DNA of 38,671 bases from NCBI GenBank assembly GCA_030682495.1, contig JAUXOC010000061.1, forward strand, positions 1-38,671, in the 5' to 3' direction. The notes beneath the pieces are model-generated. The model had not been told where the DNA came from and searched no databases. It saw nothing but the letters and a program-made list of their open reading frames with translations. Source of the stretch: Alphaproteobacteria bacterium. Its GTDB lineage: Bacteria > Pseudomonadota > Alphaproteobacteria > Micavibrionales > UBA2020. Position numbers and translations under genes: made by a program. Of this stretch, positions 1,890 to 7,206 are shown piece by piece (the stretch's first letter is position 1; each line of letters opens with the position of its first letter).

Positions 1890-3974
1890 ATGTCATACAA
1901 AGGCGATGAACATCTGGCGAAGCTGCTGGCTGCGGCTGGCGAAGATCGCAACCTTGGCACAATCAAAAAAATCCTCTCCGGCATCAACGCCGCGCCCGAT
2001 GACCTTGGCGAGCCGCTGCGCTGGACAAAACTTTTCAAAACCGGCGACGATGCCGAAGTGGTGGCGCAGCTCTCTGCCCTGCGCGAAACGCTGAAGCCCG
2101 CAGCCGAACCGACAGGCGGACGCCTTGCTGCCTTGCGTGCAGAAATGGCCAAACGCAATATCGACGGTTTTTTTATTCCGCGCGCCGATGAATTTCAGGG
2201 TGAATACGTGCCCGCGCGCGCCGAGCGTCTGGAATGGATCACCGGATTTACCGGCTCGGCCGGTTATGCAGTCGCACTGACCGACAAAGCGGCGTTTTTT
2301 ACCGATGGCCGCTATACGCTGCAAGCGCAGACGCAGGTCGATCAAAAAGATTTCGAGATTTGCAGCCTCTCCGAAGACCAGCCACCCGCGCCGACCATGA
2401 CGCCGGTGGAATGGATCGAGAAAAACCTGCCAAAAGACGCGCGTTTCGGCATCGACCCCTGGGTGCATACGCCGAACGACATCAAAAAAATCCGCGATGC
2501 CGTCGAGCGCGTGGACGGCACGCTGGTGCTGCTGGACGATAATCCGCTGGATGCCGCATGGACGGCGCAGCCGCCTGCCCCGCTGGCGCCCGTGGTGCCG
2601 CACCCGCTGCAATACGCGGGAAAAGCCTCGGACGTAAAACGGCAGGAACTTGCAAACGCGCTGACGGACGCGGGCGCAGATGCGCTGGCGATCACACTGC
2701 CCGAAGAAATCTGCTGGCTGCTCAATATCCGCGGCGGCGATGTGCCCTGCACGCCTTTTGCCTTGTCCTATGCGATTGCGCACAAGGACGGCACAGTGGA
2801 TTGGTTTATCGATGCCGAAAAGGTGACGGACGACACCCGCGCATGGGTTGGCACCGATGTGCATCTGCATCCGCTGGAGGCTTTTTCAGGCCATATCGAA
2901 AAACTGGCGCAGGACAGCAAAAAAATCTGGATCGACCCTGCCGCCGCCCCTGCAAAGCTTGAAGCCATCATTGAAGGCACCGGTGCCGCACCGCATATCG
3001 CGCGCAGCCCGCTACAATTGATGAAAGCCAAGAAAAACGACGTGGAAATTCAGGGCGCGATCAATGCCCATATCCGCGACGGCGTGGCTGTGGCGCGTTT
3101 CCTCTCCGCACTGAACGAACAAGGCGCTGCCGCCAAGCACGACGAGCTTTCTGCCACGCAGCTTTTGCAGGACATTCGCGCCGAGGGCGAGAATTTCCGC
3201 GGTCTCAGCTTCGATACCATTTCAGGATCGGGCGGCAACGGCGCGATTGTGCATTACCGCTCGAGCGAGACCACCAACCAGCCCCTGCTCTCCGGCCCTG
3301 TCTATCTGGTCGATAGCGGCGCGCAGTATCTGGACGGCACAACCGATATCACCCGCACCATCGCCGTCGATACCCCGACGCAGGAGATGAAAGAAAACTT
3401 CACCCGCGTCCTCAGGGGTCATATCGCCGTTGCGATGGCGATTTTCCCCGAAGGCACAACGGGCGACAAACTGGACGTGAAGGCACGCGCCGCACTCAAA
3501 GAAGTCGGGCTGGATTTTGCCCACGGCACCGGCCACGGCGTGGGCAGTTACCTGTCGGTACACGAAGGTCCCTGCGGTATTTCACCGCGCGCAACGAGTG
3601 TGCCGCTGGAGCCGGGCATGATTATCTCCAACGAACCCGGTTTTTACAAAGCGGGCGAATACGGCATCCGCATTGAAACGCTGGTGACGGTCATCGATAC
3701 CGGCAAGACGGACGAGAACGGCAAGAAACTGCTGGGCTTTAAAACCCTCACCCTCGCTCCGGTGGATCGCAACTTGATCGAACCCGCGCTGATGAGCGAT
3801 GACGAGCTGAAATGGCTCAACGACTATCACGCGGAGGTCGCCCGCACGCTGACGCCGCTGCTTGAAAAAGCCGACCCCAAGGCGGCCGGTTTCCTGAAAA
3901 AATCCACGCAGCCGATCGCAAAACCGGCGACACCATCTGCCAAGTCCAAGAAAATAAACGGATTTTTCATGTAA
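1890..3974 (+). CDS. Xaa-Pro aminopeptidase (M24B, aminopeptidase P type) with N-terminal extension
   Basis: A 694-aa cytosolic metallopeptidase that removes N-terminal residues preceding proline. Creatinase-like N-terminal domains occupy roughly residues 95-380, and the pita-bread catalytic domain roughly 390-650. The five metal ligands of the family are visible: Asp in YLVDSGAQY (about 475), Asp in GTTDITRT (about 486), His in GTGHGVGS (about 549), Glu in ISNEPGF (about 582) and Glu in IRIETLV (about 596). An active enzyme is therefore expected. The long three-domain form is normally about 600 residues. Here about 90 extra residues precede the usual start region (LAALRAEMAKRNIDGFFIPR), and the last 30 residues are a lysine/proline-rich tail. 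An internal start cannot be excluded, but the extension is in frame and begins 3 bases after the methyltransferase stop. Confidence 0.92.
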   Translation: MSYKGDEHLAKLLAAAGEDRNLGTIKKILSGINAAPDDLGEPLRWTKLFKTGDDAEVVAQLSALRETLKPAAEPTGGRLAALRAEMAKRNIDGFFIPRADEFQGEYVPARAERLEWITGFTGSAGYAVALTDKAAFFTDGRYTLQAQTQVDQKDFEICSLSEDQPPAPTMTPVEWIEKNLPKDARFGIDPWVHTPNDIKKIRDAVERVDGTLVLLDDNPLDAAWTAQPPAPLAPVVPHPLQYAGKASDVKRQELANALTDAGADALAITLPEEICWLLNIRGGDVPCTPFALSYAIAHKDGTVDWFIDAEKVTDDTRAWVGTDVHLHPLEAFSGHIEKLAQDSKKIWIDPAAAPAKLEAIIEGTGAAPHIARSPLQLMKAKKNDVEIQGAINAHIRDGVAVARFLSALNEQGAAAKHDELSATQLLQDIRAEGENFRGLSFDTISGSGGNGAIVHYRSSETTNQPLLSGPVYLVDSGAQYLDGTTDITRTIAVDTPTQEMKENFTRVLRGHIAVAMAIFPEGTTGDKLDVKARAALKEVGLDFAHGTGHGVGSYLSVHEGPCGISPRATSVPLEPGMIISNEPGFYKAGEYGIRIETLVTVIDTGKTDENGKKLLGFKTLTLAPVDRNLIEPALMSDDELKWLNDYHAEVARTLTPLLEKADPKAAGFLKKSTQPIAKPATPSAKSKKINGFFM

Positions 3975-5185: not shown

Positions 5186-5995
5186 TTAGGCTGACGCGCC
5201 GGACAGCACGCGCCGCAAAGCCGTGAAAAGACCGGTTTGTGACGATAACTGCGGCAAGGCCGGCAGCAGCGGCGCGAGATCACCCTCAGAGAAGCCCTCA
5301 GCCGCAGAAACCTCCGCCATAAATGCGATCCAGTCCGCATATTCCGTTTTCAGATTTTCCGGCATGAATTTCCACGTGCTTTCCAGCAGGCGCAGATAAT
5401 CATAGAGCCTTGCTGCGGCTGCGCTGATATGCGGCGCGGGCAGGTATTCAAAATCAACAAAGACGATCTGCGTCAGCTTGTCATCCGCCAGCGTATTGGC
5501 CAGCGATGCATCGGCATGCACCACACCGAGCGCATGCAGGCGTTGCAGCGCCGCGCTGGTGGCCATGACCAGCCGCCACGCCTGATCGCCCTGCGCCAAA
5601 AGAGCATCATGCAGCGGCGATAAGGGCAGATAGGCGCAGCACAGCGCGTCTTTATCCTGCCAGAGCGGCTGCGGCGTCAGGCCTGCAGCGCTACCTGCCT
5701 GATAAGCCGCCGCCTCGCGTCCCGCACGCTCCGGTTCAATCACAGAGATAAACGGCATATCCGGCGCAGGCGTCTTGCGGCGCCGGTACGGATTGACCAG
5801 CCGCAGCATGCCCAGTGTGCGGCCCTCTGCCCTGACCTTGTAAATACTGTCATGGCCGCGGCTGCCGGACAAAACCAGATCCGGCACCGCAGGCAAGCCA
5901 AAATGCGTCTGGAGTGTGCGCGCCACGATGCGGCGGCGCGGCGCAATTTTGATTTCGCCGCGAATACGGGCATAGGCGCGCTTCAGCGCCCTCAC
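5186..5995 (-). CDS. protein-kinase-fold (LPS/Kdo or APH kinase-like) protein, GTG start
   Basis: This 269-aa protein has the catalytic loop of the kinase/aminoglycoside-phosphotransferase superfamily: HADASLANTL (160-169, with H160, D162 and N167), followed by FVDFEYLP with D181 in the metal-binding DFG position. A helix-C-like EREAAAY stretch with Glu lies near 89-98. The usual VAIK lysine is not obvious (GMLRLVN at 62-68 has Arg), so nucleotide binding may be atypical. It most resembles small lipopolysaccharide-core or phosphotransferase kinases acting on small molecules or sugars. The GTG start overlaps the TGA of the upstream 361-aa gene (GTGA), implying translational coupling and a shared pathway. 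Substrate unknown; the family call is an inference from motifs. Confidence 0.75.
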   Translation of the reverse strand: MRALKRAYARIRGEIKIAPRRRIVARTLQTHFGLPAVPDLVLSGSRGHDSIYKVRAEGRTLGMLRLVNPYRRRKTPAPDMPFISVIEPERAGREAAAYQAGSAAGLTPQPLWQDKDALCCAYLPLSPLHDALLAQGDQAWRLVMATSAALQRLHALGVVHADASLANTLADDKLTQIVFVDFEYLPAPHISAAAARLYDYLRLLESTWKFMPENLKTEYADWIAFMAEVSAAEGFSEGDLAPLLPALPQLSSQTGLFTALRRVLSGASA

Positions 5996-7077
5996 GATGA
6001 AATGCTCCGCAGCTCTTTCAGGCGCAGGAAAATATCTTCCTGCTCATGCGCCGAGAAAAACAGCGGAAAATGCCCCACGGCTTCCGCTTCGTTATCGGTC
6101 GAATGCAGCGGATTGGCCGAAGGCTTGCATTTCGTCGTTGTCCTGAACCACGTACGGAATTCGCGCTTCACGAATTGCCGGCTGTTGAAAACATAGGCCT
6201 GTATCTTGCGGTCTTCTTCCGTCGCTTCCTGTGGATGCGGGTCAAAAACCAGCACCACAATACGCGGGCGTCCGCCGCGCCGCCACTTGCCGCCGCGCAT
6301 CTTGCCGCTTTCCACCAATCGCGCGGCAAGTGGTATATCTTTGACCAAAATTGTTTTAAAATGCTCGCGCAACATATTGATAAGATTTGTATGCAGTCCC
6401 GTTTTGACCGAAATACCGCGGATCACAAACATATTCATCTCGCCGCTAAATTCGCGGAACAATTGCGCCATAAACATGCTCTTCACATCTTTCGCAAACT
6501 GCTTTTGCACATAGGCAACAAGAGTTTCGTACGTAGCATTGCATTCGTGTGCCCTGAGGTAGCCATGATAAGCAAAAAGAGTATCATCCAGATTTAAGCC
6601 CAGCTGAGACTTAAGCCATTCGATCTCTGCAAGATAGCGCGACCCATTTGAAAGCGTCGGATCATCCATGTGAATCCCCGAACTCTCTGTTTTTCTATAG
6701 CAGACATGATAGAGCAACGACAAAAGGTGGGACTGCGCATCCGGCACATAGAATAAACCGTTCCACTTATATCGATGGTCGAGAATTTTCCGTGACAGGC
6801 GCGGCGGAAAATAGAGAACGCCCATCTCTCCGCCGACAGTGGTTCCTTCCGGCGTATAAAAGTCAAACTCTACGCCCTGCTTCTTTTTATATGCGCCATA
6901 TTTTTTTTTAAGAACCGGCAAGGCGCGGTCTTCTACCAGCACATCAAATTCGGCTTTTTCAGGGATTTTAGGCCAATCCGCAGAAAAGTCGAGAAACCGT
7001 CTCAAAACTGCGTATTGGTAGCTGCTTTCATCCATAAACTGAAAAAAATCTACTATATCCGGAATGAACAGGCGCAA
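5992..7077 (-). CDS. unknown protein with NDPK-like C-terminal signature, TTG start
   Basis: A 361-aa protein I cannot assign by name. The N-terminal part contains EFDVLVEDRALPVLKKKYG (about 43-61), reminiscent of the acidic strand of nucleotidyltransferase-like folds, and a conserved-looking HLLSLLYHVCYRK stretch. The C-terminal ~150 residues follow the order of a nucleoside diphosphate kinase: an opening strand (MFVIRGISVK), a helix, IVVLVFDPHP, and NPLHSTDNEAEA at 322-333. The last matches the NDPK active-site pattern N-x2-H-[GA]-S-D-[GSA] with conservative changes and keeps the catalytic His (H325). The start is TTG at 7075-7077, preceded by GGGAGA at 7 bases; no ATG is available there. 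It overlaps the kinase-like gene by 4 bases. Probably a two-gene unit in cell-surface or small-molecule phosphorylation. Confidence 0.7.
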   Translation of the reverse strand: MRLFIPDIVDFFQFMDESSYQYAVLRRFLDFSADWPKIPEKAEFDVLVEDRALPVLKKKYGAYKKKQGVEFDFYTPEGTTVGGEMGVLYFPPRLSRKILDHRYKWNGLFYVPDAQSHLLSLLYHVCYRKTESSGIHMDDPTLSNGSRYLAEIEWLKSQLGLNLDDTLFAYHGYLRAHECNATYETLVAYVQKQFAKDVKSMFMAQLFREFSGEMNMFVIRGISVKTGLHTNLINMLREHFKTILVKDIPLAARLVESGKMRGGKWRRGGRPRIVVLVFDPHPQEATEEDRKIQAYVFNSRQFVKREFRTWFRTTTKCKPSANPLHSTDNEAEAVGHFPLFFSAHEQEDIFLRLKELRSISS

Positions 7078-7170
7078 CTAATCTCTCCCTGGTAAGTATT
7101 TCTGCAATTTTTCTTTTTTGTATCTCTGTCGACTGACAAAGTAAAGCAGCCAACCCGCCCGCGTAAAACG

Positions 7171-7206
7171 AAAAAACCCCCGGCGTCTCGCGCGGGGGCT
7201 TTTTTA
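7171..7206 (-). terminator. intrinsic terminator downstream of rpsU
   Basis: On the minus strand a GC-rich stem (GCCCCCGCG pairing with CGCCGGGGG around a short loop) is followed by TTTTTT. On the plus strand the same stem is followed by a T-run too. It lies about 30 bases after the rpsU stop codon. Confidence 0.8.

Follow-up and report, generated by a model that had tools for sequence, protein, structure and literature searches.

What does a protein do that carries a degenerate nucleoside-diphosphate-kinase (NDPK) active site behind some 200 residues of unrelated sequence? The question is raised by P0001, an unnamed protein encoded in the 38,671-nucleotide stretch of alphaproteobacterial DNA analysed here (the window). 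A first-pass annotation read it as a divergent histidine-phosphorylating domain fused to another module, and that reading, a divergent NDPK-type domain in a fusion protein, is supported by the analyses below, the phosphohistidine itself being a prediction.

The P0001 gene lies in a genome of 2.52 Mb (109 contigs) and is followed by a gene for a kinase-like protein, P0002 (Table 1). The gene is considered real because homologues of almost its whole length are found at 59% identity in the same genus and at 44% identity within the same genome, and its start is placed where close homologues also begin (R-x-[YF]-IPD). The second genomic copy belongs to a diverged P0001–P0002 pair (locus L006, G000:C42), and the closest named homologue is that of Micavibrio sp. 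UBA2020. One ordinary NDPK gene is present elsewhere in the source genome, so P0001 need not perform the housekeeping reaction. The terminator-like repeat upstream of P0001 was also called on the + strand (7185–7199) by a pattern scan that found 6 such elements where 4.2 were expected, which is near chance.

Table 1. Features of the P0001 locus, in window coordinates
Feature	Position	Strand	Basis or remark
P0001, 361 aa, nucleotidyltransferase (NTase)-fold and NDPK-like domains	5992–7077	−	TTG start; near-full-length homologues
NTase-fold domain, residues 1–205	6463–7077	−	Own model, pLDDT 88.4; acidic triad E43, D45, D72
C-terminal NDPK-like domain, residues 210–361	5995–6450	−	Fold, profile and Pfam match of L018
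R220, at the NDPK beta-1 Lys position (human K12)	6418–6420	−	Arg in 20/20 rows; hhalign
R261-G-x-x-W265, region of nucleotide-cleft helices	6283–6297	−	R, G and W each 20/20
K304 and R308, on modelled helix where NDPKs have the Kpn loop	6154–6168	−	Each 20/21 rows
Active-site motif NPLHSTDNEAEA, residues 322–333	6079–6114	−	H325 and D328 fully conserved
H325	6103–6105	−	Codon CAT
D328	6094–6096	−	
P0002, 269-aa kinase-like protein	5186–5995	−	Next gene, same strand; 4-nt overlap with P0001 end
Ribosome-binding-site-like AGGGAGA	7084–7090	−	Six bases ahead of P0001 TTG; sequence
Terminator-like inverted repeat and T run, between S21 gene and P0001	7171–7200	−	Sequence
S21 ribosomal protein gene, upstream of P0001	7238–7597		Pfam, 1.1e-20

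NDPK fold and homology of the C-terminal domain

An AlphaFold2 model of P0001 built from 15 sequences has a mean pLDDT of 91.0 and a pTM of 0.89. When the model was compared with the Protein Data Bank (PDB) by VIA-align, the best 50 matches were all NDPKs (Z of 11.1–10.5); the top match (Z 11.1) aligned 124 residues with an rmsd of 3.4, and the NDPK matches spanned at most residues 205–361. The best 50 Foldseek matches listed comprise 47 chains named NDPK or NDK and three axoneme or radial-spoke assembly chains. The best of these has an E value of 1.4e-3 at a probability of 1.00, with none reaching E 0.001, and TM scores for the NDPK matches are mostly 0.5–0.6 by target length. In a search of viral structures (BFVD), a Tupanvirus NDPK ranked after two giant-virus glycosyltransferases (Catovirus and Yasminevirus), which headed the list with poor TM score and rmsd. 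As modelled, residues ~210–361 of P0001 adopt the NDPK fold, and the two strands named in the first-pass annotation fall at beta 1 (residues 213–220) and beta 3 (residues 271–279).

On its own, the P0001 sequence retrieved no PDB sequence with phmmer, had no NDK match in Pfam and found nothing relevant in Pfam or NCBIfam; matches to APOBEC3 (E 0.056) and to pieces of metallo-beta-lactamases (E 0.064–0.18) were taken as chance. A profile of the C-terminal family domain (20 rows, of which L004 and L021 are identical, as are L005 and L022) was aligned by hhalign with a profile of 29 of 30 same-phylum NDPK loci (L001 and 28 of L028–L056, L044 being left out), which gave a probability of 88.4, an E value of 2.8e-6 and a score of 42.2 over 126 columns. 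Over 200 column shuffles the score averaged 12.4 and reached at most 25.6, and reversal of the alignment gave 13.1. Masking the motif lowered the score to 23.5, which is within the shuffle range and means that the sequence link to NDPK leans on the motif, as the structural link does not; the best masked alignment was still in register on the first strand–helix–strand.

Searched against all PDB sequences, the C-terminal profile (A3) returned 71 matches at E up to 10, and in the best 60 of these NDPKs fill ranks 1–29 (lowest E 0.00066), ahead of any unrelated protein. The planctomycete homologue L018 exceeds the Pfam NDK cut-off (28.2 against 27 bits, over profile positions 4–132 of 135), scores 24.1 bits, under the cut-off, against the NCBIfam NDPK family, and is the sole NTase–NDPK member scanned that passes the cut-off of a curated family. 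On these comparisons, the C-terminal domain of P0001 is homologous to NDPK. Structure prediction and profile comparison, the two checks put forward in the first-pass annotation, both returned NDPK, and the confident model of another fold that it had named as counter-evidence did not appear.

The NDPK-like domain exists in more than one arrangement, since a neighbour of the L009 homologue (2563–3759, − strand) and proteins at L070 and L071 begin with it; the motifs at L070 and L071 read HGSDN or HASDN. This reverse-order domain aligns with A3 at an hhalign probability of 97.2 and an E value of 3.1e-11. Its direct comparison with NDPK is weak (score 25.3, 21 columns), and its link to NDPK therefore runs through A3. 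The three reverse-order proteins have no Pfam match over cut-off, and a search of 398 genomes of the phylum with the L071 domain found none. The gene adjoining the L070 and L071 proteins is presumably one for a UDP-glucose dehydrogenase.

The active site beside that of NDPK

Translation of the open reading frame at 5992–7077 (− strand) places the peptide NPLHSTDNE at residues 322–330, as first annotated; the range then given for it, 5992–6112, misses two bases of the N322 codon, which begins at base 6114. The strict NDPK pattern N-x2-H-[GA]-S-D-[GSA] has no match when the window is translated in all six frames. Once Ser, Thr and Asn are allowed, as the annotation had proposed, there is one match in six frames, at the P0001 site. 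The expectation by composition is 0.024 matches in six frames and 0.0001 in the P0001 frame, figures that are indicative only because the pattern was relaxed after the site had been seen.

Conservation was counted over 24 aligned rows, of which three (L027, L011 and the first piece of L016) lack coverage of H325. H325, whose variability the annotation would have counted against itself, and D328 are identical in all 21 rows that have a residue there. The pattern scan of contigs used two peptide patterns, one demanding the histidine, which may have favoured H325 in rows such as L014, L015, L016 and L019; no such bias attaches to rows from the searches of relatives, the class and the planctomycete set, and the planctomycete motif does not fit the pattern. 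hhalign places H325 on the phosphate-carrying histidine of NDPK and N322 (Asn in 17 of 19 rows) on the motif asparagine, at the position of human N115, and aligns R308 with human R105, the arginine of the 'TIR' stretch. Residue 326 is Ser in 15 rows, Thr in 3, Gly in 2 and Ala in 1. The column 11 after H325, at the E129 position, holds His (8), Tyr (10), Phe (2) or Met (1), and no Glu. In the model, the cleft helices are short (250–256 and 260–263) and the Kpn-loop stretch is helical (299–315). The invariance of H325, D328, R220, R261, G262 and W265, together with the near-invariance of K304 and R308, gives the site a constrained look.

In human NME1, as set out in PMC7461546 and PMC10253429, the ribose is held by K12 and N115, the phosphates are held by T94 and R88, and the base is clamped by F60 and V112 in the cleft between helices 44–52 and 60–70; E129 hydrogen-bonds the catalytic histidine (PMC7461546). 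Judged by alignment and model, the P0001 site looks as if the phosphate end has been kept and the base end rebuilt, which would suggest a working phosphotransferase with another acceptor. The domain is not filed as NDPK because it lacks the strict motif, a Pfam NDK match for P0001 itself and the E129 equivalent, and it may work like an NDPK nonetheless.

Two other readings bear on this site. Loss of the E129 equivalent and of the strict motif, and the lack of a Pfam NDK match for P0001 itself, would fit an NDPK fold with no catalytic role, whose task would be to bind a ligand (phosphorylated or nucleotide) and to regulate the NTase domain or the kinase; we consider this rather unlikely, as pure binding does not obviously need H325 and the new invariant set of R, W, K and R. 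It is unlikely that the domain is a true NDPK in which only the base pocket has drifted and which makes NTP on the spot for the NTase domain and the kinase. The histidine, the asparagine and the basic phosphate ligands are indeed retained, and the domain is fused or coupled to two enzymes that probably use NTP, but the genome already has its ordinary NDPK, and the short cleft helices and helical Kpn stretch of the model contrast with the F60/V112 clamp of NME1 described in PMC7461546 and PMC10253429.

The nucleotidyltransferase domain, the kinase and their gene neighbours

The ~200 N-terminal residues are a separate module, as had been supposed, and in the model residues ~1–205 show a nucleotidyltransferase fold. 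The best 17 VIA-align matches of the N-terminal model are all nucleotidyltransferases, among them MenT1 (Z 8.3), ANT(2'')-Ia (7.4), LnuA (7.0), TM1012 (6.6) and TglT (5.8). Foldseek alone is weak here (best E 0.031), the profile of the domain matched none of the PDB sequences, and L024 has a weak Pfam match to NTP_transf_5. The acidic triad is well kept, with D or E at residue 43 in 22 of 22 rows, D at 45 in 21 of 22 and either acidic residue at 72 in 20 of 22. In polymerase-beta nucleotidyltransferases, a G-[GS] motif precedes D-x-D; this motif is absent from the P0001 family, which has LRRF or LRWFE there instead. Longer homologues (L021, L022, L020, L017, L018, L025 and L026) carry an extra ~150–250 residues N-terminal to the NTase domain, with a recurring NNA-[DE]-[VI]-[LIM] piece.

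The P0001 family is coupled to a kinase gene. Among 21 NDPK-bearing members, 9 have a kinase gene next to them and another 6 carry the kinase as a fusion (15/21 in all). The gene immediately downstream encodes a P0002-type kinase in the window and at L014, L006, L021, L015, L008, L016 and L019, with 4-nt overlaps between the two genes in the window and at L014, L015 and L019. A second kinase type lies downstream at L022 and is fused C-terminally at L017, L018, L023, L024, L025 and L026, and no kinase was found in the available DNA of L020, L009, L010, L066, L067 and L068, five of which have only ~1.5 kb of flank. The kinase signature H-x-D...N...D-F-x is present in P0002 (HADASLAN...DFE) and in all seven other P0002-type genes examined. 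In NCBIfam these kinases come closest to Kdo kinase and Bud32, in every case under cut-off. For P0002 the best matches have E values of 2e-5 (Bud32) and 6e-4 (Kdo kinase), and its scores against Kdo/WaaP-type kinases fall short of the curated thresholds (15.4 of 21.3 bits in Pfam, 18.9 of 142 in NCBIfam). Against the PDB, P0002 gave weak matches only, in which kinases and antibody chains were interspersed (best E 0.088). Within the downstream kinase gene of L022 (7109–8218), the N-terminal part may represent a decayed NDPK-like domain that lacks the histidine.

TglT–TakA is a mycobacterial pair of an NTase toxin and a kinase antitoxin. A toxin–antitoxin or defence module of that kind is very improbable here, for although MenT1 and TglT are among the nearest N-terminal folds, a kinase gene adjoins P0001 and the kinases weakly match PADLOC PD-T4-6, P0001 itself has no PADLOC match, glycan genes are neighbours, and at six loci NTase, NDPK and kinase form a single polypeptide, which is ill suited to a toxin and its antitoxin.

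Homologues of P0001 occur in alphaproteobacteria (Micavibrio, Sneathiella and others), in planctomycetes and in a deltaproteobacterium; that of a Clostridiales metagenome-assembled genome is an NTase-only piece. They are rare: searches turned up carriers in 4 of 94 genomes from relatives, in 5 of 385 from the class and in 4 of 246 from the planctomycete set. The Sneathiella homologue at L016 is split over two frames in the draft record (6001–6429 and 6321–7091). Plasmids searched with P0001, and plasmids and phages searched with L018, gave no match; viral contigs held peptide-pattern matches and no relatives, and PHROGs yielded no NDPK match. At 11 of the 14 pattern-scan loci (L015, L016, L018 and L020–L027), a Pfam glycosyltransferase of family 2, 4, 9, 11 or 25 lies at most two genes away, a raw count. 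No glycosyltransferase was recognised at L014, L017 or L019, or beside P0001 in the window, where open-reading-frame listings were read by eye.

Proposed function and comparison with known systems

We favour, with the case about evenly poised, the reading that the NDPK-like domain of P0001 is a phosphotransferase working through a phosphohistidine, that it has been adapted to an acceptor other than the standard one, and that it acts on a surface glycan jointly with the NTase domain and the kinase. Of its parts, phosphorylation of H325 is probable, and the acceptor is likely to be non-standard; we lean slightly towards a surface-glycan pathway, on the strength of the glycosyltransferase genes near 11 of 14 loci. 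In this scheme, H325 would receive its phosphate from NTP or from the partner kinase. The conserved basic residues R220, R261, K304 and R308 would hold the phosphoryl group, which would then pass to a small acceptor that is not a nucleotide, probably a sugar, rather than to an ordinary nucleoside diphosphate. The NTase domain, its acidic triad kept, would perform a linked nucleotidyl or phosphoryl transfer, such that P0001 and P0002 (or the fused kinase of planctomycetes) would make up one phosphoryl/nucleotidyl-transfer cassette. The product would enter a surface glycan, and the likely job would be to modify or activate a sugar, for example of the lipopolysaccharide core. Against this reading stand the loss of the E129 equivalent, the lack of a recognised neighbouring glycosyltransferase in the window and at L014, L017 and L019, the six members whose available DNA shows no kinase, and the dependence of the sequence link on the motif.

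NDPK domains are generally seen as enzymes that recharge nucleotides, a few of them acting as protein-histidine kinases. A more speculative extension, which we regard as doubtful, is that the NDPK fold has here become a phosphohistidine relay, H325 carrying phosphate between NTP and a sugar or lipid-linked sugar within a kinase–NTase–NDPK machine spread through alphaproteobacteria, planctomycetes and a deltaproteobacterium. We know of no NDPK-fold protein with a phosphohistidine relay to surface-glycan sugars, and searches of open-licence PMC papers listed neither such a system nor an NTase–NDPK–kinase fusion; the combination is in no curated family searched. If true, the relay would bring glycan modification within the reach of phosphohistidine chemistry. 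An NDPK-fold active site with altered ligands is conserved across distant phyla, with an NTase domain and a kinase and often by glycosyltransferases, and the proposal offers a testable function for proteins that lie mostly outside curated families (L018 being the one exception scanned).

With Kdo kinase, WaaP, Bud32 and APH kinases, P0002 shares the H-x-D...N...D-F-E signature; unlike them, it scores far under the family cut-offs and adjoins an NTase–NDPK gene. P0001 shares with polymerase-beta-type nucleotidyltransferases (ANT(2'')-Ia, LnuA, MenT1 and TM1012) the fold and the D-x-D with a third acidic residue, whereas it falls under every Pfam cut-off and carries an NDPK-like domain. It differs from its reverse-order relatives (L009, L070 and L071), in which the NDPK-like domain comes first. 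With NDPK itself it has in common the fold of residues 210–361, the order of elements, the N-x2-H-x-[ST]-D motif, the invariant histidine and basic residues where human NDPK has K12 and R105. In contrast to NDPK, the P0001 family has HS or HT in place of HG in most rows, Arg for K12, no E129 and, in the model, short cleft helices and a helix for the Kpn loop, and it adds an invariant RGGxW, a near-invariant K304 and the fusion to an NTase fold.
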